Origin: Vulcanimicrobiota bacterium
Lineage (GTDB): Bacteria > Vulcanimicrobiota > Vulcanimicrobiia > Vulcanimicrobiales > Vulcanimicrobiaceae
Assembly (NCBI GenBank): GCA_019237435.1
Contig: JAFAHB010000244.1
Coordinates: 1-15,792 of the forward strand
DNA: 15,792 nt
Direction: 5' to 3'
Positions 1 through 11,115 of the stretch are shown here, one piece after another. The notes beneath the pieces are model-generated. The model was not told the origin of the DNA. It ran no database searches and worked only from the letters and a program-made list of their open reading frames with translations. How positions within the stretch are numbered: the first letter of the stretch is position 1; the number at the start of each line of letters is the position of its first letter. A program made the position numbers and the translations under genes.

Positions 1-172
1 CCAAACGCGGGAGCCGCGTCACGCTCTTGAGCACGATCGCACCGATTTTTGCGAGATCGGCGAAAGGCGCGAACTCTTCACCCGTACCGTAGCAGCCGCT
101 TCCCATCAGCGTCGGATACGGCAGCTCGAGCTTGCCGATCTTCGTCCGAAGACTTGGCCGAACGCTCACCAT
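1..172 (-). CDS. pyrD: Dihydroorotate dehydrogenase catalytic subunit PyrD (class 1B), N-terminal part only
   Basis: Only the first 57 residues lie in the window; the gene runs off the left edge. The reading begins MVSVRPSLRTKIGKLELPYP and continues with GSGCYGTGEEF, then LAKIGAIVLKSVT. This matches the conserved start of class 1B PyrD, where a GTFGYGEE-like loop and a GAIVVKG-like strand begin the FMN-binding TIM barrel. The family oxidises dihydroorotate to orotate in pyrimidine synthesis and passes electrons to PyrK. The ATG at 172 overlaps the pyrK stop within ATGGTGA; the GTG at 169 is an alternative start with a 4-base overlap. The pyrK neighbour strongly supports the 1B type (NAD-linked heterotetramer). 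The active-site residue lies outside the window. Confidence 0.85.
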   Translation of the reverse strand, partial: MVSVRPSLRTKIGKLELPYPTLMGSGCYGTGEEFAPFADLAKIGAIVLKSVTRLPRL

Positions 173-990
173 CGCAACTCATCCGCCCGAAAGACCGGAC
201 CTTCCCGGCAAATCCGCGCGTAAACGACGTCGCTTCCGCCGCGTGAAGCGGGGGGAAAGCTCGGTGCCTGCGCGCTGCTGGCAACGACCGGAACGACGCA
301 GCCCCAGCAGCCGCCGATGCCGCATCCGAAGGTTTCTTCGAGCGCTAGTTGCGCGGGAATGTCGAGCTCACCAGCGATGCGCGCAACGGTGCGCAACATC
401 GGAGTCGGTCCACACGCGTAAATCATATCGGGCCTGCGCGCGCGTTCGAGCGCATCGGTAATGAAACCGCGCTCGCCTGCGCTGCCGTCGTCCGTTGAAA
501 GGACGAGCTCGCAACCCGCGTCGGCGAATCGCTGCGCGTCGACGAGCAGCTGCGCCGTGCGCGCGCCGTAGAAAAGCCGCACGCGTCTGTCCGCGCGCAG
601 CAACGCGTGCGCGCAGAGTAATACCGAGGCTATGCCTACGCCACCCGCAACGATGGCGACGTCGCGCGCGTCAACGGAACAGTCGAAGCCGTTTCCGAGC
701 GGACCGACGACGTCGAGTCGATCACCGCAGCGTAGTTCGGAGAGCTCGCGCGTGCGCTTGCCGGTTACAAAGAAGAGGAGGCTTGCGAGCTTGCCCTCCG
801 CTTCGTAGACGGCGAGCGCGGTTGCAGCCGTCTGCGCGCTTGGTGGAATCGCCATCACATACTGGCCGGGTCGCGTTGCGTCTGCCAGCCGCGGTGCTTC
901 CAGCCCCAATGCAACGACGTCGCTCGCGACTTCGCGACGTTCGATTACCGTGGTCGCGTGCACGGCCGCATTCCGGTCGGCGCTGGCCAT
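166..990 (-). CDS. pyrK: Dihydroorotate dehydrogenase electron-transfer subunit PyrK
   Basis: A 274-residue protein of the ferredoxin-reductase type that carries FAD and a [2Fe-2S] cluster and links PyrD to NAD+. Visible motifs are the FAD-binding RPGQYVMAIPP near residue 40, the nucleotide-binding GGVGIASVL, CGPTPML, and a C-terminal cluster motif with Cys223, Cys228, Cys231 and Cys261 (CGIGGCWGC ... CREGPVF). The gap between the third and fourth cysteine is 29 residues, longer than the roughly 16 I recall for Bacillus PyrK; the extra part is rich in Pro, Ser and Ala. The start is uncertain. I chose ATG 990, giving a normal N-terminus, but TTG codons at 1011 and 1008 are in frame and none has an ideally spaced SD. 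pyrD follows with a short overlap, so the two are translationally coupled. Confidence 0.9.
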   Translation of the reverse strand: MASADRNAAVHATTVIERREVASDVVALGLEAPRLADATRPGQYVMAIPPSAQTAATALAVYEAEGKLASLLFFVTGKRTRELSELRCGDRLDVVGPLGNGFDCSVDARDVAIVAGGVGIASVLLCAHALLRADRRVRLFYGARTAQLLVDAQRFADAGCELVLSTDDGSAGERGFITDALERARRPDMIYACGPTPMLRTVARIAGELDIPAQLALEETFGCGIGGCWGCVVPVVASSAQAPSFPPASRGGSDVVYARICREGPVFRADELRW

Positions 991-1047
991 CTCTTCAGGC
1001 TTTTTCAACAAATTCTTACGAAAATCTCTGCAAAGGGCTGCACACCC

Positions 1048-1076
1048 TTGCTACCAGAGCCGTTATACTGTATAGA
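1048..1076 (+). promoter_or_regulatory. Sigma70-like promoter of the 46-aa gene
   Basis: TTGCTA at 1048-1053 and TATAGA at 1071-1076 are separated by 17 bases, a good housekeeping-sigma layout. Transcription would begin near 1083, leaving a short leader that contains the AAAGGAGGG SD before the ATG at 1110. This AT-rich patch stands out from its GC-rich surroundings. It also lies between divergent genes, so pyrK may be promoted from the same stretch, but I see no convincing pair on the minus strand. Confidence 0.5.
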
Positions 1077-1109
1077 GAGCGTAAATGATCAAGAAAGGAG
1101 GGTCCGCAG

Positions 1110-1250
1110 ATGGCAGGTCTTATCGTCTTCAAATCGCTAGCCGACGCACTGAGAGCGGGCTATCAGGTTTACGATCGGACTGCGGACGGATATCTCGTCA
1201 GGACTCGCACGGCCGCCGGCTGGGCAATGGCCTTGGTTTCCTGTAAGTAA
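1110..1250 (+). CDS. Small 46-aa protein of unknown function, stand-alone gene
   Basis: A 46-codon frame from ATG 1110 to TAA 1248-1250 starts MAGLIVFKSLADALRAGYQV and ends AAGWAMALVSCK. The SD AAAGGAGGG (about 1094-1102) sits at ideal distance and is among the strongest in the window. A 17-spaced promoter lies upstream and a rho-independent terminator 23 bases downstream, so the gene forms a complete monocistronic unit. The peptide has a possible amphipathic helix (KSLADALRAG), then a Tyr/Arg-rich middle (YQVYDRTADGYLVRTRT) that looks like a beta hairpin, and a hydrophobic tail. It has no signal peptide, membrane helix or metal motif. I do not recognise a family. A small cytosolic regulator or binding protein is possible but is only inference. 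Confidence 0.75.
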   Translation: MAGLIVFKSLADALRAGYQVYDRTADGYLVRTRTAAGWAMALVSCK

Positions 1251-1272
1251 GATCGTCTTTTTTCGATACGTA

Positions 1273-1309
1273 AATGCCGCCGGCCAACCGACCGGCGGCA
1301 TTGCTTTTT
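1273..1309 (+). terminator. Rho-independent terminator after the 46-aa gene
   Basis: An 11-bp perfect stem (AATGCCGCCGG at 1273-1283, CCGGCGGCATT at 1292-1302) with an 8-base loop is followed by GC and five T (1305-1309). This is a plus-strand terminator. The hairpin also lies 20 bases past the stop of the convergent minus-strand gene, but on that strand it has no U-run, so a two-way role is possible but less supported. Confidence 0.8.
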
Positions 1310-1321
1310 GGCTCCGAAGGG

Positions 1322-1918
1322 TCAGCTGCGATAATCCGGCGGTGAAGCGGGTTTCTCGATCTCGGGGGTCGAGCCCGGACGCCAGCCGCCGTAGACGGGC
1401 CCCGGCGGCATGCCGCCGCCCGCGTCGCTCGACGCAGGACCCGGCGCCGCTGTCGAGGTCGGGCCGAAGCGCTGGCGGGCCGTCGGGGGGCCGAAGGTGG
1501 CACCGCCCATCACCGCGCCGATGATCTGAGCGATCCCCACGAAGAGCGGAATCAATCCGCCGAGCAGCCAGGGGCCGTAAACGTACGTCCCGTCGCCGCG
1601 GTATCCGATAAAGCCCAAGCCGATCAGCAGCGCGAGACCAATGCACGCGACTTGCAGGCCCTTGCGCAACTGCCGCTGCGCGTAGAAATCCGGCGGGTAA
1701 TAGTCGTACTGGCCGGGCTGATCTTGCGTCGCCGTTCCGGGCGTCCATCCGGACTTCATCGCACGACGCATGTCGCGTGCGTTCGGCGGCGGTACGATGC
1801 CGCGGCGCAGCATTTCCATGCGTTCCTGGTGCGCGAGCACCCGAGAAACCAGCCACACCGTGCAGGGCAAGCCGAAGATGCACGTCACGGCGATCGCGGC
1901 TACAATGTTGTCATCCAT
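1322..1918 (-). CDS. Small multi-helix membrane protein, DUF6249-like
   Basis: A 198-residue protein starting MDDNIVAAIAVTCIFGLPCT. Hydrophobic segments lie at about residues 4-26, 88-106 and 115-140, so three membrane helices are likely. Between the first two is a charged stretch with HQERMEMLRRGIVPP, which resembles the helix seen after the first membrane segment in DUF6249-type proteins; this is a resemblance from memory, not a search result. The C-terminal 55 residues are rich in Pro, Gly and Ala and probably disordered. The ATG at 1918 directly abuts the TAG (1919-1921) of the upstream gene, and GGAG lies eight bases before it, so it is the last gene of a coupled three-gene operon. Function unknown; the context suggests the cell envelope. 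Confidence 0.8.
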   Translation of the reverse strand: MDDNIVAAIAVTCIFGLPCTVWLVSRVLAHQERMEMLRRGIVPPPNARDMRRAMKSGWTPGTATQDQPGQYDYYPPDFYAQRQLRKGLQVACIGLALLIGLGFIGYRGDGTYVYGPWLLGGLIPLFVGIAQIIGAVMGGATFGPPTARQRFGPTSTAAPGPASSDAGGGMPPGPVYGGWRPGSTPEIEKPASPPDYRS

Positions 1919-2827
1919 CTATTGGGCTCCGTTCGTGAGAATGTGAATCGATCCGTCGTCAGTGGCCAGTTTCATTCGGCCCGTGCCCGCGCCGAGACGG
2001 ATCGTACGCTGCGCGGAATCGTTGCTGTCGCGGGAGACTCCGTCGACGGAAATCGTTCCGTCGCCGGTCGACGCATCGATGGTAAGGTTCGAGTTCGGCG
2101 CGAGGCTGACGCGAACCGGGCCGTCCGCGGTTTGCAGCGTTCCATCGCCGGCAACGTTCAAGCCTTTGGCGGTGATACGTCCATCGCGAGTCGTGCCGAC
2201 GAGCGAATCCACTGCGACGTCGGTGAGGCCGAGATGACCGTCCATGGACGTCATTGCGAGCCGATCTGAGTGCAGGTTCGCGGCTTCGATGTAACCGTCG
2301 TCGCTGCGCGCCGTCACGGTGCCTTGCAAATTGCTCAGCGTCACGTGACCGTCCACCGAGTGAACGTCCACGCCGCCGGCGATGCCGTCCACGTCCGCGC
2401 CGCTGCAGCGCGCGATCTCGATACGCGCGTCTTGCGGCACGTCTACGGAGATGCGCTGCACGCTGAATCCAAAAATCTCGACCGACAGGCGCTCGACGTG
2501 TGGACGTTCGATTCGGACCCCGTCGAGCGTTCGCGTGACGGCGAGCCGCGGATAGGGCTGGTTGGAAAAGATCGCGCCTCGCATCTCGGTCAAATCGCGT
2601 ACGTGGACGAGCCCGTCGCTGGACGTACCGACCAAGACGCGTGAACTCGCGTCGTCGATTACGACCTGCGGCCGGGCGCCGGCCGAAATCGGGGCAATCG
2701 GCGCAGCGCTAAACTGCACCTGGTGCATCCCCGACGCAAATGAAGCGCCGCCGATTGCGTAGATCGTCATTCCGACGATCGCAATCTCAGCGGCAACCAG
2801 CATCGCGATAACCGTGGCGCGCGACAC
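1919..2827 (-). CDS. Membrane-anchored DUF4097-like beta-repeat protein
   Basis: A 302-residue protein. Residues 7-29 (IAMLVAAEIAIVGMTIYAIG) form an uncleaved signal-anchor helix. The rest is made of short repeated strands with the recurring pattern S/T-x-D-G-x-(I/V): SSDGLVHV, SVDGHVTL, SDDGYIEA, SMDGHLGL, TRDGRITA, TADGPVRV, TGDGTISV and TDDGSIHI. This is the hallmark of DUF4097 / putative-adhesin right-handed beta folds on the outer face of the membrane. The start is GTG 2827, two bases after the stop of the 41-aa gene. No clear SD is visible, so translation is probably coupled. A second protein with the same DUF4097 character ends the divergent operon (6292-7347). The molecular role of the family is not known. 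Confidence 0.85.
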   Translation of the reverse strand: MSRATVIAMLVAAEIAIVGMTIYAIGGASFASGMHQVQFSAAPIAPISAGARPQVVIDDASSRVLVGTSSDGLVHVRDLTEMRGAIFSNQPYPRLAVTRTLDGVRIERPHVERLSVEIFGFSVQRISVDVPQDARIEIARCSGADVDGIAGGVDVHSVDGHVTLSNLQGTVTARSDDGYIEAANLHSDRLAMTSMDGHLGLTDVAVDSLVGTTRDGRITAKGLNVAGDGTLQTADGPVRVSLAPNSNLTIDASTGDGTISVDGVSRDSNDSAQRTIRLGAGTGRMKLATDDGSIHILTNGAQ

Positions 2828-2829
2828 GG

Positions 2830-2955
2830 TTAGAGACGCGGCCCCCAGCCGTCAAAGGTGGGACGGAGCGATTGCGCGGAGTTTCGCTCGTCGATCGGCT
2901 GCGAACGCTCCGAGCGGACGCCGCCGGGAAGGGTTTTGTTCGGGATCTTGGTCAT
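2830..2955 (-). CDS. 41-aa small protein, first gene of the DUF4097-DUF6249 operon
   Basis: A 41-codon frame from ATG 2955 to TAA 2832-2830. The sequence starts MTKIPNKTLPGGVRSERSQP and ends LRPTFDGWGPRL. The SD AAGGAGG sits about ten bases before the ATG and is the strongest in this operon. The next gene's GTG starts two bases after the stop. The peptide is polar, with many Arg, Pro and Ser, and has no hydrophobic segment, so it should be soluble or disordered. It could be a true small protein, for example a partner of the membrane proteins or of the divergent sigma system, or a leader that couples translation to the SD-poor DUF4097 gene. I do not recognise it. Confidence 0.65.
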   Translation of the reverse strand: MTKIPNKTLPGGVRSERSQPIDERNSAQSLRPTFDGWGPRL

Positions 2956-3075
2956 CTCTGCGTTTTGCCTCCTTGAGAGTTCCTGCCGTAGTTACGGTTT
3001 GGGAGAGCCGATGTTTCGCGCCATCTTAGAGGACCTACAGCGAAACAATAGCGGCCTCGCGCGCGTACGAGGGAC
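2956..3075. promoter_or_regulatory. Divergent intergenic region between the DUF4097 operon and the ECF sigma operon
   Basis: This 120-base gap separates two divergent operons and must hold both promoters. On the minus strand TAAGAT (3028-3023) is a fair -10 hexamer, with a poor -35 (CTATTG) 17 bases upstream. On the plus strand I find no convincing sigma70 pair. The minus strand carries GGAACT, an ECF-like -35 hexamer, at about 2979-2974, but it lies against the SD and cannot serve the gene beside it. Control of one or both operons by the adjacent ECF factor is an inference from layout only. Confidence 0.35.
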
Positions 3076-3663
3076 GTGTCGGCACTCTTGGCAGAGGCTC
3101 CGCGCCCGGGCGTGAGAGCACAGCCGGAAGACGGCGATTTGGTCGCGATGACGCTCCGGGGCAACTCGGAGGCGTTCGCAACTCTCGTCGAGCGATACGA
3201 CCGAGCGGTCTATCACCTCGCGTACCGTACGCTTCACGACGTCGAAGAGGCTCGCGACGCAACGCAAGAAGCCTTTTTCAAAGCGTTTCGCAGCCTGCGG
3301 ACGTTCAAGCCGGGCTCGAAATTCTCGACCTGGATTTTCGCGATCACCTACCACGCGTGTTGCGATCGGCTCAACCGGCGCAAGCGGTATGCAAGCGAGG
3401 AGCTGCCCGAGCGCGCCGACACGGCGCCCGGTCCGGAGCAGCGAGTGATCGCGCTCGACGAAGCCTCCCGGCTGCGGGCCGCGATCGACTCTTTGCCGGA
3501 AAAGTACCGCACGGTGGTGACCCTGTTTCATTTGCAAGGGCGCCAGTACGAGGAAATTGCGAACGTACTGGGCGTTCCAATGGGTACGGTCAAGACGCAT
3601 TTATTTCGGGCAAAGGAGCAGCTGCGCAGGCTCCTGACCGCAACGGAGGTAACGGAATCATGA
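3076..3663 (+). CDS. ECF-family RNA polymerase sigma factor (RpoE/SigW type)
   Basis: A 195-residue two-domain sigma factor. Region 2 covers about residues 22-105, with AFATLVERYD, the region 2.2 motif DATQEAFFKAFRSL and the -10-recognition stretch FSTWIFAITYHACCDRLNRRKR. Region 4 covers about 135-190, with LPEKYRTVVTLFHLQGRQYEEIA and the helix-turn-helix GVPMGTVKTHLFRAKEQLRR. There is no region 1.1 or 3, as expected for ECF factors. The start is GTG 3076, with GAGGG very close upstream; GTG 3112 is in frame and also possible. The stop overlaps the next ATG by four bases (ATGA), which couples it to a membrane protein in the usual anti-sigma position. It most likely turns on an envelope regulon, probably including this operon. 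Confidence 0.92.
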   Translation: MSALLAEAPRPGVRAQPEDGDLVAMTLRGNSEAFATLVERYDRAVYHLAYRTLHDVEEARDATQEAFFKAFRSLRTFKPGSKFSTWIFAITYHACCDRLNRRKRYASEELPERADTAPGPEQRVIALDEASRLRAAIDSLPEKYRTVVTLFHLQGRQYEEIANVLGVPMGTVKTHLFRAKEQLRRLLTATEVTES

Positions 3664-4034
3664 ACATGGACGAGCTCGAACGCGCACTTTTGGAACTACC
3701 GCTGGAGGAGCCGCCGGCAGGCTTGCGCGCCTCGATCTTGCTCGCTACGGCCTACCGGCCGCAGCCGGCGTTCTCGTTCCTCGAAATCGTTACGCTCGGC
3801 ACGCTCGGTGCGGTCGCCCTATGGCTGATCGTGTTGCTCGTCTCGGGAGGCGGTTCGCTCTTCGTGCACACGCTCGGAGCAATCAGCTCGGTTCTCTCGC
3901 GCACCCTGTCGAACGCAGCAACCTTGGCGTGGCTTGCCGCCGGCGCCGCGACGGCACTTTGGCTCACCGTTTTCACCGGATCCCAACCCCTCGCGACGGC
4001 CGCTCACAGGTCCGCAAGGAGGGACAGCCGATAA
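3660..4034 (+). CDS. Two-helix membrane protein, probable anti-sigma factor
   Basis: A 124-residue protein starting MNMDELERALLELPLEEPPA, with the SD GGAGGT nine bases before ATG 3660; ATG 3666 is also usable. A short acidic cytoplasmic part (about 1-38) is followed by membrane helices at about 40-63 (FLEIVTLGTLGAVALWLIVL) and 88-108 (AATLAWLAAGAATALWLTVF), then a basic tail. It lacks the HxxxCxxC zinc motif of classical ZAS anti-sigma factors, so the assignment rests on its position directly after the ECF gene, the 4-base overlap, and the fit of a small cytosolic domain plus membrane helices. An alternative is a membrane accessory protein of the kinase encoded downstream. Confidence 0.65.
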   Translation: MNMDELERALLELPLEEPPAGLRASILLATAYRPQPAFSFLEIVTLGTLGAVALWLIVLLVSGGGSLFVHTLGAISSVLSRTLSNAATLAWLAAGAATALWLTVFTGSQPLATAAHRSARRDSR

Positions 4035-4081
4035 TGTATCGGCATGGAGAAACACGCACCGCAGGAGCGGCGACCCTATAG
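4016..4081 (+). promoter_or_regulatory. SD and overlapping 15-codon frame at the anti-sigma / response-regulator junction
   Basis: AAGGAGGG at 4016-4023 is the only good SD here. It is ten bases from ATG 4034 but 20 bases from the response-regulator ATG at 4044. ATG 4034 shares one base with the TAA (4032-4034) of the preceding gene and opens a 15-codon frame (MYRHGETRTAGAATL) that ends at 4081 inside the response-regulator gene. In the regulator frame a stop at 4032 blocks any earlier start. The short frame may be a coupling leader from which ribosomes reach 4044, or it may be chance. Confidence 0.3.
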
Positions 4082-4736
4082 GATCCTCGTCATCGAGGAC
4101 GACGCGGCGATCAACCGCGTCCTGCAGCTCGAGCTAGAGCACGAGCGCTACGAGGTCGAAGTCGCGCGCGACGGCCTTTCCGGCCTGGAAAAGGCGCTGA
4201 AAGAACCCGATCTGGTGATCCTCGATTTGATGTTGCCGCGCATGGACGGCATCGAGGTTTGCAAGCGCATCCGGGCCAAGAGCCGCGTGCCGATCATTAT
4301 GCTGACCGCGCGCGATCGCGTTCCGGATCGGGTTGCCGGTCTCGACGTCGGTGCCGACGATTACGTCACCAAGCCGTTCTCGACCGAAGAGCTGCTGGCG
4401 CGCGTGCGGGCCCGCCTGCGCGAACGCTCGCCGCAAGGCAACGTGATCGAATACCGCGACGTGGTAATGGATCGCGACCGCCACGAAGTTCATCGCGGCG
4501 GAAAACCGGTCGCGTTGACGGCCAAAGAGTACGCGCTCCTCGAGTACCTGCTCTTACACCGCAATAAGGTGCACACTCGCGACGAACTGTTCAACGGCGT
4601 CTGGGGCAGCGATTTCCTCGGCGACTCCAACCTGATCGACGTCTACATCCGTTATCTGCGCGGCAAAATAGATGACGGCTTTGAGGACAAGCTCATCACA
4701 ACCGTCCGCGGCGTGGGCTATACGATAAAAGATTGA
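4044..4736 (+). CDS. OmpR-family response regulator
   Basis: A 230-residue two-domain regulator. The receiver domain (about 12-125) has the acidic pair Asp19/Asp20 in VIEDD, the phospho-acceptor Asp61 in VILDLMLP, Thr88 in IMLTARD and Lys110 in VTKPF, so all key residues are present. The C-terminal winged-helix domain (about 135-230) has LTAKEYALLEYLL, the recognition helix region SNLIDVYIRYLRGKID and the terminal RGVGYTIKD typical of OmpR/PhoB proteins. The start at ATG 4044 is forced by an in-frame stop at 4032. The gene lies between the anti-sigma-like gene and the histidine kinase, its likely phosphate donor. Its binding sites are probably direct repeats; none is proven here. Confidence 0.95.
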   Translation: MEKHAPQERRPYRILVIEDDAAINRVLQLELEHERYEVEVARDGLSGLEKALKEPDLVILDLMLPRMDGIEVCKRIRAKSRVPIIMLTARDRVPDRVAGLDVGADDYVTKPFSTEELLARVRARLRERSPQGNVIEYRDVVMDRDRHEVHRGGKPVALTAKEYALLEYLLLHRNKVHTRDELFNGVWGSDFLGDSNLIDVYIRYLRGKIDDGFEDKLITTVRGVGYTIKD

Positions 4737-4843
4737 AGGGGCTTTGACTGCTCGGCTTGCGGCGGATACCGGCTACTCGCAGACGCTCGTCGCGGCGCAT
4801 CCATGCTCCGCTCCTGCTGCTCCCCTTTTTCGGCTATCCATTT

Positions 4844-6295
4844 ATGTCCCTTAAGTGGAGGATTGCGTTAGGCTACTCGGCGCTGCTGATCGTCGCGATG
4901 ACGGTGATGAGCGGCATCATCGTCTGGCGCTTTCAGCAGATCCTTTACAACCAGGCGCAGACGAGCGTCAATGCGACGATGAAGGCGATCGTGCAGTTCG
5001 CGCAGCAATCCACTACGCCGTTCTCGCTCGAGGATTCGTCGCTCGGCACGCTTCAGTTTCTCTTCAACAGCGCCAATCTCACGACGTGGAACTCGGCGAA
5101 CAGCTACGTGCAAGTCGACTCGGGCGACGGCTATCCGCTTGCCAAGACGGCGAATCTCGGCGGGCTCACGATCCCTCCCAATCCTAAGGTCTCGCCGGTC
5201 CACGACGTAGCGTTTCGGGAAGTCACGCTGGGCGCCCGTTCGTTTCTCGTCGAGGACCGCTATCTTCAAGAAGGCGTGAACGCGGCCGTCATCCACGTCG
5301 CCGAACCGCTCGACACGCTGCAGCGTACGTTCTCTCGCGCACGCGAAGCAATCGTTATCGTGCTCGTCGGGGCCGTCGGGGCGGTCGTCATTTTCTCGAT
5401 CGTGTTTGCATCGCAAGCGACGACGCCGATCAACGAGCTCTCTCGCGAGATGCGCGAGATCAGCTCCGACCGTCTGGCGCTCGCCGCCGGAAGTTTCGAC
5501 GGCGGGCTCCGTGGTAACGCACTGCCGCGCCGCCGCGACGAAATCGGGCGGCTGGCAAAGAGCTTCAACGATCTGCTCAACCGGCTCGGCGAGGCGTTCG
5601 CGCGCGAACGGCAATTCATTTCCGATGCCTCGCACGAGCTGAAAACGCCCCTGACGTCGATCAACGCAAACGCACAGATGTTGCTACGCTGGGCCGATCA
5701 AGATCGGACGATCCGCCGGGAGAGTTTGGAGACGATCGTACGTGAAAGCGCCGACTTAGCGGGGATGGTCAACGGCATGCTGACCCTGGCCAAGGCCGAC
5801 CGAGGCGACGAGATCCCCAAGGAGCCGCTTTCGCTTGCGCAGATAGCGAGCGAGGTCACGCAAAACGGCGCGTCGCGCGCGGCGGAGAAGCAGATTGACC
5901 TGCGGTTCGAGCACGAGGGAACGCCGATCGTCTACGGTGACGCCAACCTGCTGCGACAAATGATCGGCAACCTCGTCGACAACGCCGTGAAGTTCACCGA
6001 GCGGGGCCGCGTCGACGTTCGGGTGGGTGAGAACCGCAACGCCGCCTGGGTAGAGGTGGCCGACAGCGGGCCCGGCATCGCCGAGGAAGAGCGCGATCGC
6101 ATTTTCGAGCGTTTCTACCGCGCCGATAAGGCGCGCTCGCGGAGCGTTCCGGGTACGGGGCTAGGCTTGGCAATCGTCCGCTCGATTGCTCGCGTACATG
6201 GAGGCGAAGCGAGCGTCGGCCGCTCGGCGGGGGGCGGCGCGGCCTTTCGCGTTCTCTTACCACGCGTCAAGCTTCCGTTCACCGATCTCTCATGA
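4844..6295 (+). CDS. Membrane sensor histidine kinase with HAMP domain
   Basis: A 483-residue kinase starting MSLKWRIALGYSALLIVAMT. The first membrane helix (about 7-30) is followed by an extracytoplasmic sensor region of roughly 130 residues, a second helix (AIVIVLVGAVGAVVIFSIVF), a HAMP linker with TTPINELSREMREI, a HisKA domain with the phospho-acceptor His264 in SDASHELKTPL, and a HATPase domain with Asn380 in NLVDNAVKF, DSGPGI, an ERFYRAD stretch and GTGLGLAI. All catalytic boxes are intact. I chose ATG 4844 because kinases of this type start right before the first helix; TTG 4757 would add 29 Arg-rich residues. Neither start has a clear SD. The stop overlaps the next gene by four bases. 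It is the partner of the response regulator upstream. Confidence 0.93.
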   Translation: MSLKWRIALGYSALLIVAMTVMSGIIVWRFQQILYNQAQTSVNATMKAIVQFAQQSTTPFSLEDSSLGTLQFLFNSANLTTWNSANSYVQVDSGDGYPLAKTANLGGLTIPPNPKVSPVHDVAFREVTLGARSFLVEDRYLQEGVNAAVIHVAEPLDTLQRTFSRAREAIVIVLVGAVGAVVIFSIVFASQATTPINELSREMREISSDRLALAAGSFDGGLRGNALPRRRDEIGRLAKSFNDLLNRLGEAFARERQFISDASHELKTPLTSINANAQMLLRWADQDRTIRRESLETIVRESADLAGMVNGMLTLAKADRGDEIPKEPLSLAQIASEVTQNGASRAAEKQIDLRFEHEGTPIVYGDANLLRQMIGNLVDNAVKFTERGRVDVRVGENRNAAWVEVADSGPGIAEEERDRIFERFYRADKARSRSVPGTGLGLAIVRSIARVHGGEASVGRSAGGGAAFRVLLPRVKLPFTDLS

Positions 6296-7347
6296 TGCTC
6301 TCGCGAGGCCCCCGATACAATGAATCCGTGCGCGGAGGATTCTGGCGGGGGGCACTCGTGGCGCTCGCCGCTTCACTCGTTTCTCTCGTCCTCGCGGCGC
6401 CCGCGCGCGCCGACGAGCAGTTTGACGTTGGTCCGTCGCCGGTCCTCAACGTAAACGTGGGACGCGGTCAGGTGACCATTCAAACCTGGGACCGGCCGCA
6501 GATTCTCATTTCGTCGGCGCAGCCGACCGACGTGCGGCATCTCACGCCCGATCAAGTCGATCCGCGTATTCCCAAGCAGATGCAGATGCAGTCGCACCGC
6601 ATCCAAACCGAGCACGGACCGGTAACGCTTGACGCCGAGCCGTTCGTGCTTCCCGAGTTATCGGGCAGCTCGCACGATGCGATCCTGGCACAAGGCGACG
6701 GCCGCATGACGATCATGGTTCCGCGCGGCACCGCGATGGTGATCGCCCATATGCGCGCCGGCCACTTGACGATCAATGATTATCGGGGCGTCTTTGTAAC
6801 GCACGTACGCGCCGCCGAGATATCCCTCAACAACGTCGGCGGAACGGGTTACGTGGAATCGTTACGCGGACGCGTCGTAGCAACGGATTCGTCCTTCGAT
6901 CGGTTGCGAGTGCGCACGGCGACGGGCGACATGCTTTTCCAACGCTGCACCTCGCAGCAAATTCAAGCGAACAGCGTTTACGGATCGATCGTCTACGACA
7001 ACGGCAGCTTCCAGCCGGGTCTTGCGCGCTTTGAATCCGAGCACGGCAACGTTGCTTTGGGCGTGCGGGGCAACGCTCAGATCGGCGCGCATAGCGGCGC
7101 CGGCCACGTCGTGTCGAGCTTCGATGACGCGCACGTTCAAGGCGATCCGGCGACGAAACAGGCCACGGTCGGCGGGGGCGGTCCGGTCGTTACCGCGACC
7201 TCGAAAAATGGTTCGGTCTACCTCTACAGCGGCTCGATGGACGAACATCCGCACGTCCGCCAAGAGTTGAGCGGCAGCATACAGCTTCCGATTCGCGAGA
7301 ATCCGCCGCCTCGGCCGTTGCCGCGACCCGACCGTCCGCCGATGTAG
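6292..7347 (+). CDS. Exported DUF4097-like beta-repeat protein
   Basis: A 351-residue protein. The N-terminus contains a clear signal peptide, ALVALAASLVSLVLAAPARA, with cleavage after Ala40. The mature part is rich in short strands such as LNVNVGRGQVTIQTWD, GDGRMTIMVPRG, RAGHLTINDYRG, LRGRVVATDS and SVYGSIVYDNG, the DUF4097-like style also seen in the gene at 1919-2827, although this copy lacks a membrane anchor. The last 30 residues are Pro/Arg-rich. ATG 6292 overlaps the kinase stop (ATGA), which implies coupling; ATG 6295 and GTG 6328 are alternatives that keep the signal peptide. As the last gene of the sigma/two-component operon it may be a sensed or secreted effector at the envelope. 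Confidence 0.82.
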   Translation: MMLSRGPRYNESVRGGFWRGALVALAASLVSLVLAAPARADEQFDVGPSPVLNVNVGRGQVTIQTWDRPQILISSAQPTDVRHLTPDQVDPRIPKQMQMQSHRIQTEHGPVTLDAEPFVLPELSGSSHDAILAQGDGRMTIMVPRGTAMVIAHMRAGHLTINDYRGVFVTHVRAAEISLNNVGGTGYVESLRGRVVATDSSFDRLRVRTATGDMLFQRCTSQQIQANSVYGSIVYDNGSFQPGLARFESEHGNVALGVRGNAQIGAHSGAGHVVSSFDDAHVQGDPATKQATVGGGGPVVTATSKNGSVYLYSGSMDEHPHVRQELSGSIQLPIRENPPPRPLPRPDRPPM

Positions 7348-7404: not shown

Positions 7405-9288
7405 TTAGTGACCGGAGAAGATCGAGTTGCTGATGTCCTGCTGCATGACGTAGTAGTTGATCGATCCGAGGCCCGTGGGCTCGTCCCATCCCGGCCCCGC
7501 GCTGCTTGGTATTCCGTTCGACCCGAAAAGGATGTCGTTGAATCCGCCGATCGGAGCCGTCGTGTCCGGAGGTGCCGCGGACGTGTCGTCTCCCGGCTCG
7601 CCTGCCGGTACGCACTTGGTAGATTTGAGCGGACACGGTTCGTAGTATCCGTACACGCCGTAATAGACGGGTGCTGCGAATCCGAGGTTGTTCTTGAAGT
7701 TGCTCTCCAAGCGCGCCCAGACTCCCATCGACATCGGTGAAGAGAGACTGGTACCGCCGACTCCGGTCTGCGTACCACTGATGAACACATCCATCGGGCA
7801 GCCGTTGTTGTCGGCACACATCGCAATGTCGGCTGTTCCCCGAATACTGTCCGTCGTGCAGACGGCGCAGATTCCGTTGCCCTGCCAGTATCCGGCGGAT
7901 TCGAACGCGCTGTACCCGCCGCCGGTCCCAACCCAGACGTGCTCGCCGTAGTACGTTCCGGGCTCATTGCCGTTCGCATTGGTGTCCAGGGTCGTGCCGC
8001 CGACGGCGACAACGTATGGCGACGACGCGGGATAACAGACTTGAGGCGTTCCGCCGACCGGCGCACCGGTATTGAGGAGAACCGGGCAACCCGAACCGCT
8101 GTCGCCGGTCGAAGCGAACATCGTCATCCCCTGGCTTGCGGCCTCATTGAAGAGCTCGTCGTCGGTTTGCATCGCTCCATCGGCATACGCAACGGCTTCC
8201 GGTTCGCCGAAGGACGAGTTTCCGGCTTGAGTCTTGTTATCGCTGACCCACCGGCTATATTCGAGCGAGATATCCGAGTCACTGAGCGACGTGGTGTCGT
8301 AGACGTAGAGATGTTTCAGCCTGTCGGCAAATCCGCTCGAGATCTGCGTGTCGAGGTCCCATTCATCCAGACCCGACGTATCGCTGCTCGAAGCGCCCAC
8401 CTTCACCACCGAGTACGCCACCGACGGAAGCCCCCAGAACGCTTCGGCGGTGCGCAGGTCGGTAACGACTTGCTTTACGTCGCCTTCCGCCATCACTGCG
8501 ATCGCCGTCTTGCTGCCGGTGCTGCACGTCGTGGGACAGCTCGTGGCCCCGTACGCGACTTGGTATTGAGGCGGACCGTACTCGCCGCCGATGCAAATTC
8601 CGTTCTCGACTTCTAGGCACGGCGGCGGCGTGCCGGCCGTCATCGGCACGAACTTACGCTCGGATTTTACGATATGGGTGTGCATCTGGTACGCATTGGT
8701 CAGCCCGAGCACGGCCAGCACCGTGTTGCGAAGCTTCACCGGCACGAGGGCCGGCTCGACGTTGCCGTAGATCGCTTTTCCGTTCACCGTCGTTCCGTGA
8801 ATGGTCGTGTGAAACGCGGCCTCAACGTGCGAAACGGCGGCGAAGCCGCTAACGATCAAGTTGTTGGGCTCGATGCTGACCTGCGTGAAGCCTTGCTCTT
8901 TGAGATAGTTTGCCACCGCCGCGGCTTCACCGCGCGAGGGGCTGAACATCGCCGTGAACTGCTCCGGCGTCAACCACTGATGAAACGATGCGTTGCCCGG
9001 AGTACGCTGATTGCGGACGAGCTGTCGGGCACCGTCCCCGTCGCGCAGGCGCAAACCGACGACCACGTGCAGCTGCGTTTTGTCCGAGACGCCGGCGCTC
9101 GGGAACTGCTTAAAGGGGATCGCCTTGGTGGCTGTAGCGGCCCATCCCGGGGGGATTCGCTCCGTTGACGCGGGTACGGATGCGCCCGGCAAGAACGGCG
9201 ACGCACCGTTTGATGAGATACTGTTTCCGGTGCACGAAGCCGTTAGAATACCTACGGCAAAGCCGGCACACAGCAGCGGTTTCTTCAT
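7405..9288 (-). CDS. Pro-kumamolisin, S53 (sedolisin) serine-carboxyl peptidase, lipoprotein
   Basis: A 627-residue secreted protease. Residues 1-19 (MKKPLLCAGFAVGILTASC) are a lipoprotein signal with the lipid Cys19. The pro-kumamolisin activation domain covers about 50-215 (FHQWLTPEQFTAMF, LIVSGFAAVSHVEAAFHTTI). The catalytic domain holds Glu309 and Asp313 in LDEWDLDTQ, the oxyanion Asp396 in STGDSGSG and the nucleophile Ser514 in GGTSLSSP, so the full S53 set is present. The C-terminal GFNDILFG and GPGWDEPTGLGSINYY form the calcium site. Extra cysteines in the catalytic part suggest disulfides. Length fits the family. Start ATG 9288 has GGAG seven bases upstream. The enzyme is expected to cleave protein outside the cell at acid pH after self-removal of the pro-domain. 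Confidence 0.95.
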   Translation of the reverse strand: MKKPLLCAGFAVGILTASCTGNSISSNGASPFLPGASVPASTERIPPGWAATATKAIPFKQFPSAGVSDKTQLHVVVGLRLRDGDGARQLVRNQRTPGNASFHQWLTPEQFTAMFSPSRGEAAAVANYLKEQGFTQVSIEPNNLIVSGFAAVSHVEAAFHTTIHGTTVNGKAIYGNVEPALVPVKLRNTVLAVLGLTNAYQMHTHIVKSERKFVPMTAGTPPPCLEVENGICIGGEYGPPQYQVAYGATSCPTTCSTGSKTAIAVMAEGDVKQVVTDLRTAEAFWGLPSVAYSVVKVGASSSDTSGLDEWDLDTQISSGFADRLKHLYVYDTTSLSDSDISLEYSRWVSDNKTQAGNSSFGEPEAVAYADGAMQTDDELFNEAASQGMTMFASTGDSGSGCPVLLNTGAPVGGTPQVCYPASSPYVVAVGGTTLDTNANGNEPGTYYGEHVWVGTGGGYSAFESAGYWQGNGICAVCTTDSIRGTADIAMCADNNGCPMDVFISGTQTGVGGTSLSSPMSMGVWARLESNFKNNLGFAAPVYYGVYGYYEPCPLKSTKCVPAGEPGDDTSAAPPDTTAPIGGFNDILFGSNGIPSSAGPGWDEPTGLGSINYYVMQQDISNSIFSGH

Positions 9289-9360
9289 TACTCGACTCCT
9301 CTCGATAGTGCAACAAGTCGGTTCCGGCGCGGTCACTGGAAAGTCGCCGGCCTGCGGAAA

Positions 9361-9432
9361 ATCATAACGAATTTCGAGCCGTCCGGAACTGGGGTTGTAC
9401 TACACAGTTTCTGCTACAGTTGCTCGCGCGGG
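9361..9432 (-). promoter_or_regulatory. Promoter region of the kumamolisin gene with ACAGTT direct repeats
   Basis: On the minus strand TATGAT (9366-9361) is a fair -10 hexamer about 73 bases before the ATG, without a good -35. Upstream lie two ACAGTT copies (9404-9409 and 9416-9421 in plus-strand reading; AACTGT on the minus strand) spaced 12 bases start to start. The outer copy belongs to the element CTGCTACAGTTGCTCGC (9411-9427), which recurs with one mismatch at 10067-10083. A weak -35 next to repeated sites suggests an activator, which is inference. Confidence 0.45.
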
Positions 9433-9457
9433 CATTACCCTACGAACGCTCCTGCAG

Positions 9458-9490
9458 AAAAAAGGGCTCGCAGTTCACTGCGAGCCCTTT
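9458..9490 (-). terminator. Rho-independent terminator of the small lipoprotein gene
   Basis: A perfect 13-bp stem (AAAGGGCTCGCAG at 9461-9473 with CTGCGAGCCCTTT at 9478-9490) has a TTCA loop in plus-strand reading. On the minus strand it ends in a run of six T (9463-9458), partly within the stem. It lies 26 bases past the stop of the lipoprotein gene and separates it from the protease promoter, so these two minus-strand genes are separate transcripts. Confidence 0.85.
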
Positions 9491-9515
9491 CCCTGCGTCG
9501 CGATCGAGATGCGCG

Positions 9516-9965
9516 CTATAGTGTGACGGTTACCCTGACTCGTAACCTCTCGTACCGGCTGTAGACCACGAAATTTCCGCTGCCTACGACGGCGCCGAGA
9601 ATTTCAAACGTCGTCGCCCTGTTTCCCTTCATCGGGGAAATCACGACGATTCCGCTGGTATTGTTCTTGATCGCAAACGTTCGATTGCCGTACCCACGCT
9701 CGTGGAAATTGCAGCCCACGACTCCGAGAAGGATGATATGCACGTGCGTTCCGCAACTCGAGACGATCTCGTGTCTATCCCGCTTATCCGGGACGATGAC
9801 GGCGCTGTCGGGCGCTTGCCCTTCGTTGTTCTGCGGCGTCGTCACGGCGCTGCTCGTCGGCAAGTAGCTTGACGGTCCAGACGGTGCGCCGTGGCAAGCA
9901 ACCAAGCCCAACGAGAGGACCGCTGCGCCGGCTAACACCGCAAACAGATGGCGCTTGTTCTCCAC
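9516..9965 (-). CDS. Small lipoprotein of unknown function
   Basis: A 149-residue protein. The signal peptide (HLFAVLAGAAVLSLGLVAC) ends in the lipobox LVAC with lipid Cys24. A Ser/Pro/Thr-rich linker (25-55) leads to a compact domain of about 85 residues with two cysteines (SSCGTHVHIILLGVVGC) and a strand-rich pattern (TFAIKNNTSGIVVISP, ATTFEILGAVVGSGNFVVYS, RLRVRVTVTL) that looks like a single Ig-like beta sandwich. The start is GTG 9965, because GGAGG is spaced seven bases from it; an ATG four bases upstream is out of frame. It has its own terminator. I do not recognise a family; an outer-surface or periplasmic protein is likely. Confidence 0.8.
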   Translation of the reverse strand: MENKRHLFAVLAGAAVLSLGLVACHGAPSGPSSYLPTSSAVTTPQNNEGQAPDSAVIVPDKRDRHEIVSSCGTHVHIILLGVVGCNFHERGYGNRTFAIKNNTSGIVVISPMKGNRATTFEILGAVVGSGNFVVYSRYERLRVRVTVTL

Positions 9966-9977
9966 GCATGTTCCTCC
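9965..9977 (-). promoter_or_regulatory. SD deciding a GTG start over a nearby out-of-frame ATG
   Basis: Minus-strand reading is GGAGG, AACATGC, then GTG GAG AAC. The GTG at 9965 has seven-base spacing and leads into the lipoprotein signal peptide. The ATG at 9969, three bases after the SD, opens a different frame without a signal peptide. It may compete for ribosomes and lower expression. Confidence 0.5.
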
Positions 9978-10066
9978 TTAGTAACAAGTAAGCTATGATC
10001 GGCACGAATGTGGCCTCTCGTGACAGACATGGTACCGCTTCCCGAGCCGTGGTCCGCGCACGAACG

Positions 10067-10089
10067 CTGCTACAGTTGGTCGCACAGTC
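10067..10089. promoter_or_regulatory. Second copy of the ACAGTT direct-repeat element
   Basis: CTGCTACAGTTGGTCGC at 10067-10083 matches 9411-9427 in 16 of 17 bases. ACAGTT at 10072-10077 is followed by ACAGTC at 10084-10089, again with a 12-base step. It lies 102 bases upstream of the lipoprotein GTG (minus) and 43 bases upstream of the beta-propeller GTG (plus). Its orientation relative to the minus-strand gene is the same as at the protease gene, which points to shared control of the two secreted proteins, though it could also serve the divergent gene. Confidence 0.45.
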
Positions 10090-10131
10090 GCGCGAGGGTG
10101 GCGGCTCGGCTCTCTTGAAGATTTCGCTGCT

Positions 10132-11094
10132 GTGCTCTGTCTCGTTGAGGCGCGGCGATTAGCGCCTATCCTGGCGGCTGCCGCGCTGACCGGCTGCGCG
10201 GGTGGCTCGTTGACGGCCCCGCCGATGCCGGCGGATTCGTCGACAGCTTTCAGCGCGGTGCGTTCGGGCGCCCAGTTTTACGGCAACGATTACGTGTATA
10301 GCGCGCAGCTGTACGGCAACGACGCGACCGTATACGCTCGGAAAGGCCTTTCCCTGACGCCGCTGGAGACCTTGTATCCCGGCATCGCCGCGCCGCAAGG
10401 AACCATCGTAACGCCAAACGGCTGGTGGTACTTGGCAAACGGCGGTGATGCGAACGTCCTGATCTATCGTTCGACGCGCAAGGGGCCGAACGGCCCGGTG
10501 GGCTCCCTCGACGACAGCGGCGAGGTCCCGGACAACGTCAGCGTCACGGGCGATCGGAACCTCGTTGCGGTTTCAAATGCGGTAAGCGCCGGCAGCGGCA
10601 CCGGAAGCGTGAGCGTTTACGTCAATCGCGAGTCGCGGCCGTCTCGCATCCTCAGCTACGGCAGCGATCAGCTTGCCGGCCAGGGCGTCGCGATCGATCC
10701 GCAAGGCAACTGCTACTGGAGTTTCAACGACGTCAGCAGCCCGAGCAAGGTCGGCTCGATCGTAGGGTTCGCCAACTGCAGCGGAGCGGGCTCGCCGGTA
10801 GTCTCGGGTATCGTCAGCGCCGGTGGAATGGCCTTCGACCATAGTGGCAACTTGTATTACGTCGACGAAGCCGCCGGCATTTACAAATGCCAGAAGACTT
10901 CATCGTGCAAACTGTTAGCGAGCGGCTTCGGCTTGCCGACCAACATCAACTTCGACTCCAAGCAGAAACACTTATGGGTCGCCGACGCGACGGGTTACAT
11001 CGATGCCGTGAATCCTCAGACCGGCAAGATCGAGTTTCAGACGATCTCGGTCGGCGGGGATCCATATGGAATAGCGCCCTCACCGGGCAGCTAG
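10132..11094 (+). CDS. Lipoprotein with NHL/SMP-30-like beta-propeller
   Basis: A 320-residue protein. The signal peptide (RLAPILAAAALTGC) ends in lipobox LTGC with lipid Cys22. The mature part shows blade-like repeats of strands and turns: GTIVTPNGWWYLANGGDANVL, NVSVTGDRNLVAVSN, GVAIDPQGNCYWSFND, GMAFDHSGNLYYVDEAAGIYKC, NINFDSKQKHLWVADATGYIDAV. The D-x-x-G-N-L-Y-V style is typical of NHL/SMP-30 six-bladed propellers. The start is GTG 10132; no other start in frame fits and no good SD is visible. If GAAGAT (10117-10122) is a -10 box the message would be nearly leaderless. The stop is 18 bases before the XRE-ATPase gene, so the two form one unit. The ligand or substrate is not known. Confidence 0.82.
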   Translation: MLCLVEARRLAPILAAAALTGCAGGSLTAPPMPADSSTAFSAVRSGAQFYGNDYVYSAQLYGNDATVYARKGLSLTPLETLYPGIAAPQGTIVTPNGWWYLANGGDANVLIYRSTRKGPNGPVGSLDDSGEVPDNVSVTGDRNLVAVSNAVSAGSGTGSVSVYVNRESRPSRILSYGSDQLAGQGVAIDPQGNCYWSFNDVSSPSKVGSIVGFANCSGAGSPVVSGIVSAGGMAFDHSGNLYYVDEAAGIYKCQKTSSCKLLASGFGLPTNINFDSKQKHLWVADATGYIDAVNPQTGKIEFQTISVGGDPYGIAPSPGS

Positions 11095-11115
11095 GAGTCC
11101 GGCAAGCTCCTAATG
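11092..11115 (+). promoter_or_regulatory. SD-masking inverted repeat at the propeller / regulator junction
   Basis: TAGGAG (11092-11097) and CTCCTA (11107-11112) are exact inverted repeats separated by nine bases and end directly at the ATG (11113). The left arm contains both the stop codon of the upstream gene and the only SD-like GGAG. The hairpin would hide that SD until a ribosome finishing the upstream gene opens it. Confidence 0.45.

Follow-up and report, generated by a model that had tools for sequence, protein, structure and literature searches.

Two-component systems and extracytoplasmic function (ECF) sigma factors are two main routes by which bacteria report trouble at the envelope. 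A locus carrying both is found in a 15,792-nucleotide stretch of DNA (contig JAFAHB010000244.1; "the window" below is this whole stretch) from a Candidatus Cybelea-like Vulcanimicrobiota bacterium of the Vulcanimicrobiaceae, a family of soil bacteria in a little-studied phylum. On the plus strand, genes for an ECF sigma factor, a membrane protein with two predicted spans (two-span protein), a response regulator, a histidine kinase and an exported toastrack (DUF4097) protein, here called TRB, are arranged head to tail. This arrangement had been read from the letters in a first-pass annotation, and it is borne out by Pfam matches, by 4-bp overlaps between the sigma and two-span genes and between the kinase and TRB genes, and by a gap of 9 bp between the two-span and regulator genes. 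The second DUF4097 gene that the annotation placed on the opposite strand, TRA in this text, is real (1919-2827) but lies outside the interval given there for the locus (2830-7347). A DUF6249 membrane protein, a gene of 41 codons and a divergent promoter pair (2993-3067) are found in addition to what was annotated (Table 1).

The reading that we favour, with moderate confidence, is that this is a family-wide regulatory locus with a SigW-like ECF sigma factor on top, most likely serving envelope stress. The sigma factor most likely drives both transcripts, the kinase operon included, because two back-to-back ECF-type promoters lie between the two halves of the locus. It would read one promoter for its own operon (sigma factor, two-span protein, regulator, kinase and TRB) and the other for the divergent transcript (small protein, TRA and DUF6249 protein), and the two-span protein would restrain it. 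Envelope damage, perhaps felt via the toastrack or DUF6249 proteins, would free the sigma factor, and the freed sigma factor would raise the kinase pair and TRB, leading to a second output tuned by phosphorylation. TRB would most likely tune the kinase from outside the membrane, as suggested for CseA acting on CseC.

Linkage of the sigma and regulator genes in the family

With the kinase as a query, matches were obtained in 40 of 41 genomes at E <= 1e-40, the window's genome counted, and 40 loci of 39 relatives were compared for gene order. In the genus and in the family the recurrent order is FNR (pyrK-like) - DUF6249 - (TRA) // sigma - two-span - regulator - kinase - TRB, where the double slash marks the divergence; G022 and truncated contigs are the exceptions. 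Of the 149 genomes returned by a sigma-protein search of the phylum, 87 passed E <= 1e-60, 86 of these in the family, and the regulator is present in 87 of the 99 family genomes at E <= 1e-90. At 83 of the 87 sigma places in the 86 family genomes, the regulator gene lies 360-473 bp downstream of the sigma gene on the same strand, a count confined to the family, with the sole non-family match, order-level G028, left out. The gene order is thus not unique to the window's genome, and the conservation check proposed in the first-pass annotation came out in its favour.

The exceptions are of different kinds. In G022, the sigma unit and the regulator are on one contig about 1 Mb apart, while in G069 the sigma gene is at a contig end and the regulator on a different contig. 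In G024, the sigma unit is followed by a fragment of the regulator, the remainder of which lies beside the kinase where another contig begins. In G086, the sigma unit is retained together with both promoters, and other genes are found next to it; no regulator match was obtained in its genome, and neither a regulator nor a kinase match in the stretch. Regulator places without a sigma match over the threshold are seen in G005 and G009, where the contig ends in or just before the sigma unit, and in G100, where the regulator is 511 bp from a contig end. Joint loss of sigma and regulator in some metagenome-assembled genomes is no evidence, because linked genes vanish from assemblies together.

On the divergent side, 88 upstream regions were collected, consisting of every family sigma place and that of G028, each made up of the 430 nt that precede residue 30 of the sigma protein (202 nt for G076). 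A DUF6249 homologue is located upstream of the sigma gene in 86 of them, and in the other two (G076 and G128) the contig is cut short upstream. TRA is present in 52 of the 88; the DUF6249 protein is the constant partner of the divergent transcript and TRA an optional one. The locus of G119, for example, reads DUF6249-TRA // sigma - two-span - regulator - kinase - TRB with both promoters present. Outside the family, G028 carries a DUF6249 // sigma - two-span unit (G028:C30, L151), and about 1.9 kb further, where the contig stops, a regulator sharing 77% identity with that of the family; this locus is possibly a case of transfer or contamination.

A pair of ECF-type promoters between the two transcripts

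When the divergent intergenic regions of 19 genomes are aligned, two conserved blocks appear in all 19: GAAAC-N16/17-CGTA on the plus strand before the sigma gene, and GAAAC-N16-CGTA on the minus strand. The truncated loci L014, L045, L051, L056 and L072 were left out of this set, as were L035, equal in length and in matches to L040 of G008, and G022, which has no sigma gene at that place. Of the 88 regions, 82 have the plus site, 82 the minus site and 78 the two together, against 0.20, 0.07 and 0.000 expected from 100 dinucleotide shuffles per region and 0 and 0 with a reversed-pattern control; the G028 region is one without the plus site. In all 78 regions with both sites, the -35 elements are arranged back to back with 0-48 bp between them. 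The consensus has YGAAACA at -35 and CGTA at -10 (YGAAACA-N15/16-CGTA). The SigW promoter of Bacillus is TGAAAC/CGTA.

A shared regulon predicts the same promoter on both divergent transcripts, and the promoter pair therefore supports the word "integrated" that the locus had received at first sight; the presence of both sites in 78 of 88 regions and the family-wide order at 83 of 87 places agree with it. Between the end of the -10 element and the assigned sigma start there are 8 nt in 14 of the 19 genomes, the window included, so the sigma message is possibly leaderless or nearly so.

Table 1. Features of the locus in the window, with coordinates, strand and matches
Feature	Coordinates	Strand	Match
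DUF6249 membrane protein, 198 aa	1322..1918	-	Pfam PF19762, 4.8e-10
TRA, toastrack (DUF4097) protein with N-terminal anchor by eye, 302 aa	1919..2827	-	PF13349, 1.1e-14
Small gene, 41 aa, C-terminus RPTFDGWGPRL, GGAGG 12 nt before ATG	2830..2955	-	
Putative ECF-type promoter facing small gene-TRA-DUF6249, GAAAC-N16-CGTA	2993..3017	-	
Putative ECF-type promoter facing sigma operon, GAAAC-N17-CGTA, end 8 nt before GTG start	3042..3067	+	
ECF sigma factor, 195 aa	3076..3663	+	Pfam Sigma70_r2, 4.7e-17; Sigma70_r4_2, 9.4e-18
Two-span membrane protein, 124 aa, proposed minimal anti-sigma factor	3660..4034	+	no Pfam family at E <= 0.1
OmpR/PhoB-type response regulator, 230 aa	4044..4736	+	Response_reg, 1.4e-30; Trans_reg_C, 2e-26
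Sensor histidine kinase	4844..6295 (listed open reading frame start 4757)	+	HAMP, HisKA, HATPase_c
TRB, toastrack (DUF4097) protein with signal peptide by eye, 351 aa	6292..7347	+	Pfam DUF4097, 1.2e-5

The sigma factor and its partners

Regions 2 and 4 of the sigma protein score over the curated cut-offs (PF04542, 62 bits; PF08281, 64 bits), as does the whole for TIGR02937 (120.9 bits against a cut-off of 42.9), and on these profiles the protein is assigned to the ECF (group IV) sigma factors. SigW is its closest solved relative in the PDB (5wuq, 3.3e-28) and comes second among its NCBIfam matches, with scores below the SigW cut-offs (136.1 against 209, and 121.9 against 243.1). The likeness to the Bacillus SigW/RsiW pair ends at the partner: neither Pfam nor NCBIfam gives a class I anti-sigma domain in the two-span protein. 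In G002, G011, G013 and G001, a short repeat-like insert rich in CTTCGACTC is located just after the assigned GTG start of the sigma gene, and the N-terminus of the sigma factor therefore varies.

We propose, from its place and conservation, that the two-span protein is a minimal anti-sigma factor, a possible brake on the sigma factor. Its gene overlaps the sigma gene in the window and follows it in 20 of 20 further loci inspected. Among seven divergent members, 13 of the 19 invariant positions fall within residues 1-31, predicted to be cytosolic, and the strongest conservation, LxLPLEEPPxGLRxSIL, is also predicted to be on the cytosolic side. A structural model built with 26 sequences (mean predicted local distance difference test, pLDDT, 76.5; predicted template modelling score, pTM, 0.41) has helices at 3-12 and 20-31 (mean pLDDT 63-69), spans at 40-61 and 86-106, and a helix at 65-83 between the spans. 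The two short helices before the first span, of low pLDDT as they are, recall the description of CnrY, a class II anti-sigma factor whose two helices wrap around CnrH; class II domains have less than 50 residues (PMC7406223). Searches of families and the PDB gave no sequence match for the two-span protein, and the likeness in the model is one of resemblance, not of membership.

The same protein might instead be a structural or transport partner of some kind, with sigma activity set by transcription alone. This is somewhat unlikely in our view. It would fit with the absence of any anti-sigma family match, of an HxxxCxxC zinc motif (by eye) and of a class I domain, which takes at least 50 residues by profile while only about 39 precede the first span; the constant position behind the sigma gene and the clustering of invariant residues in the predicted cytosolic part speak for the brake.

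TRA and TRB both exceed the PF13349 cut-off of 22.9 bits, with 54.8 and 25.2 bits, respectively, and TRA is far below the NCBIfam cut-off for LiaG (30.7 bits, 1.7e-7, against 285). The TRB model (mean pLDDT 82.8, pTM 0.78) consists mostly of strands, and its best match is 4qrk (E 2.3e-7, probability 1.00, but low TM-scores of 0.25 and 0.38), which is among the structures named toastrack in PMC11237479. By eye, TRB has a signal peptide (ARAD), with residues A40 and D41 unchanged across 30 sequences, and TRA is anchored through its N-terminus, so the toastrack domains (beta-helix) of both should be outside the membrane.

The regulator is below the NCBIfam cut-off for CseB (189.9 bits, 4.2e-56, against 350), and MtrA and PhoB score above CseB, all of them below cut-off. 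For the kinase, the ATG at 4844, 107 bp after the regulator gene, is probably the true start and the listed TTG at 4757 wrong, since in nearly every genus relative the alignment begins only at residue 23-30; the exception, G004, aligns from residue 7 by read-through of stops.

The 41-codon gene is, from its predicted place between the minus promoter and TRA, the first of the divergent transcript. A small open reading frame ending in R[PT]TFxGWGP and two more residues (six in G007) is found in 28 of the 88 regions, each time with GGAG at most 20 nt upstream. This strict count misses at least G013, whose motif has RSTF, and the looser motif RxTFxGWGP occurs in 30 regions. The spacing from GGAGG to ATG among the 30 is rather long and constant, being 12 nt in 25, 11 nt in 2 and 15 nt in 2, with no such element in 1. 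Across the nine codons of the motif, the minority letters total 5 at codon position 1, 4 at position 2 and 88 at position 3; because they are concentrated at the third position, the protein is under purifying selection. A protein database has 79 clusters matching it at E <= 1, and some of the relatives are labelled Candidatus Cybelea or Baltobacteraceae, both placed by NCBI in the Vulcanimicrobiaceae. No signal peptide or span was seen in it by eye. It represents a new and sharply defined small protein family, and we propose that it may act as a cytosolic feedback element. Only tentatively can the whole be drawn more sharply, as a wiring not described before: an ECF sigma factor held by a minimal class II-like anti-sigma factor above a two-component system, with a bidirectional sigma promoter for the kinase operon and the divergent one, and a small protein that would bind some part of the circuit through its nearly invariant C-terminus, RPTFxGWGPR[L/I], to give feedback or carry a signal.

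Origin of the joined locus and its precedents

In an outgroup family, f3, the kinase half occurs without the sigma unit. There, 10 of 11 loci have a TRB-like gene behind the kinase, the contig of the eleventh (L063) ending about 220 bp past the kinase, and a pyrK-like gene is nearby in 10 of 11, L067 being cut off. No sigma, two-span or DUF6249 match was found in the f3 stretches. The region upstream of the regulator was analysed at 10 of the 11 f3 loci (L067, without regulator, being left out) and in G022, and no ECF-type site was found at the f3 loci. A box, TYTCAC-N6-TTAATG, is located there instead, exact in 9 of the 10 and with one mismatch in 1 of the 10, and a search of five f3 genomes gave a single copy in each, at the regulator. 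None of the 88 regions upstream of the sigma gene contains this box, and the kinase operon of the family is therefore probably dependent on the sigma promoter. Because f3 has the kinase operon without the sigma unit, and its own box is absent upstream of the family's sigma genes, the locus can be regarded as a joining of two modules: most likely, a sigma/two-span // DUF6249 unit was inserted between pyrK and a regulator-kinase-toastrack operon that was there before, and came to control the expression of that operon. The path of this joining is traceable, because the unjoined state survives in the outgroup and partial states are seen in two genomes. A TRB profile found no downstream partner at four f2 loci.

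A looser relation would be that two independent systems merely share a place, the inserted sigma unit driving the old regulator-kinase-TRB operon by read-through with no signalling between them. The kinase operon of f3, the units about 1 Mb apart in G022 and the sigma unit with its promoters but no regulator in G086 all suit this idea, which we regard as unlikely given that the linkage is kept at 83 of 87 places and that the f3 regulator box is missing upstream of the sigma gene.

Some observations on the box stand apart. Of five family genomes tested, two contain it, at G010:C1:2540460 (L294), G013:C3:153689 (L295) and G013:C7:336537 (L296), shortly before genes for exported proteins that are FecR-domain-like by eye, in surroundings unlike those of f3; these genes are possible targets of the regulator. 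A candidate box in the window itself was rejected, as the single match had two mismatches, as expected by chance.

The first-pass annotation had held that ECF factors and two-component systems are normally separate and that the locus is a candidate for an undescribed system. The former is overstated, since sigE-cseABC of Streptomyces joins both in one operon, and the latter too strong in view of sigE-cseABC and the Lia/VraTSR systems. In the published account (PMC6767563), CseBC activates sigE, sigE transcription depends completely on it, and sigE has no anti-sigma factor. The locus of S. coelicolor shares with ours an operon-like array of an ECF sigma factor, a small envelope-protein gene, a regulator and a kinase, and it has a role in envelope stress in Streptomyces. 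It differs in that its second gene encodes a lipoprotein, as described there, in place of a two-span protein, and in that ours has ECF-type promoters on both sides and toastrack, DUF6249 and small-protein partners.

Could the locus be the same kind of cascade, the kinase pair sensing the envelope, the regulator activating the sigma gene, and the two-span protein being an accessory rather than an anti-sigma factor? The gene order is similar to sigE-cseA-cseB-cseC, and CseB is among the NCBIfam matches of the regulator, which nevertheless scores higher for MtrA and PhoB. By the same account, the Streptomyces sigE promoter is no target of sigma-E, whereas an ECF-type promoter precedes the sigma gene in 82 of our 88 regions, and the outgroup regulator box was found upstream of it in none, although the regulator could use another site. 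On balance such a cascade appears distinctly unlikely, and the sigma factor probably stands above the kinase here, opposite to the Streptomyces direction. If true, a stacked sigma/kinase locus, apparently the reverse of the Streptomyces one and retained throughout a family, would show how circuits join and rewire.

Other precedents concern the toastrack proteins. In PMC11237479, a toastrack protein with an operonic sigma factor is foreseen as an output route, and an actinobacterial Lia-like kinase/regulator core shares its promoter region with a divergent PspC gene, sometimes carrying a toastrack. Our locus resembles Lia/VraTSR in having a toastrack beside a two-component system, and TRA weakly resembles LiaG; it differs in its OmpR-type regulator and in its toastrack domains, which are predicted to be outside the membrane, while that paper argues for an intracellular location. 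No Pfam match to LiaI-LiaF-TM, PspC or PspA was found among the eight proteins of 166-7347. MprAB-SigE-RseA of Mycobacterium tuberculosis combines a sigma factor with an anti-sigma factor and a two-component input, but its sigma gene is a target induced by the two-component system. In searches of an open-access library, no paper joining DUF4097, an ECF sigma factor and a histidine kinase was found. The locus is a variant of sigE-cseABC-like operons and Lia-like toastrack systems, with a new small protein family added. Envelope sensing, with the toastrack proteins as sensors, ligands or outputs as first annotated, would be in keeping with these relatives, and the "two signal inputs" of that annotation would be valid only if the two-span protein is an anti-sigma factor.

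Several points weigh against the sigma factor as the head of both transcripts. Ten of the 88 regions lack one or both sites, and the regions are related, not independent, although the surrounding sequence has drifted far in the 19-genome alignment. The promoter is assigned by consensus, and other sigma factors of these genomes could read the pair; among the genomes listed, a search showed 3 to 58 candidate sigma places per genome, which are not all sigma genes. The two-span protein has no family or PDB match (Pfam, NCBIfam and PDB searches), and its model is only moderately confident. The G022 regulator has no ECF-type site upstream, and the halves can come apart, as seen from the separated units of G022 and from G086, whose sigma unit lacks a regulator. 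In searches of whole genomes, the promoter pattern occurs 74 times against 39 for the control and 47 against 29 in two near-complete genomes, and 38 against 15 in eight genomes, where 16 of the 38 are the locus itself (matches at 30 loci per search were inspected downstream); the excess being mild, a wider regulon is not claimed. One target outside the locus does find support: an exported aspartyl protease (PF13650 in the G003 copy) carries this promoter 8-9 nt ahead of the ATG in 6 of 8 close genus orthologues and at 6 of 7 genus loci (L269-L274 and L276), and yet at only 7 of 20 homologous loci in all. An exported 120-residue protein, whose promoter was first seen in three genomes, was rejected as a regulon member: the promoter is present at 3 of 16 genus homologous loci (the start at L261 being beyond the contig end), and the shared part looks by eye like an ordinary -10.

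The window's genome is an incomplete assembly of 1.78 Mb, 68% complete, with the locus on contig 12, and no aspartyl protease match over the threshold was found in it. A pyrK-like gene (dihydroorotate dehydrogenase electron-transfer) lies at 166-1011 (-) of the window, and such a gene is a frequent neighbour of the locus across the family and the class. Behind TRB, the interval 7405-13581 contains genes for a pro-kumamolisin-type protease, a small exported protein, a propeller-like protein and an HTH/NB-ARC/TPR regulator. In the genus relatives showing both genes, a metallo-hydrolase/DUF1501 pair is located close behind TRB, whereas in the window it is separated from TRB by this interval, which therefore looks like an insertion in the window's lineage.

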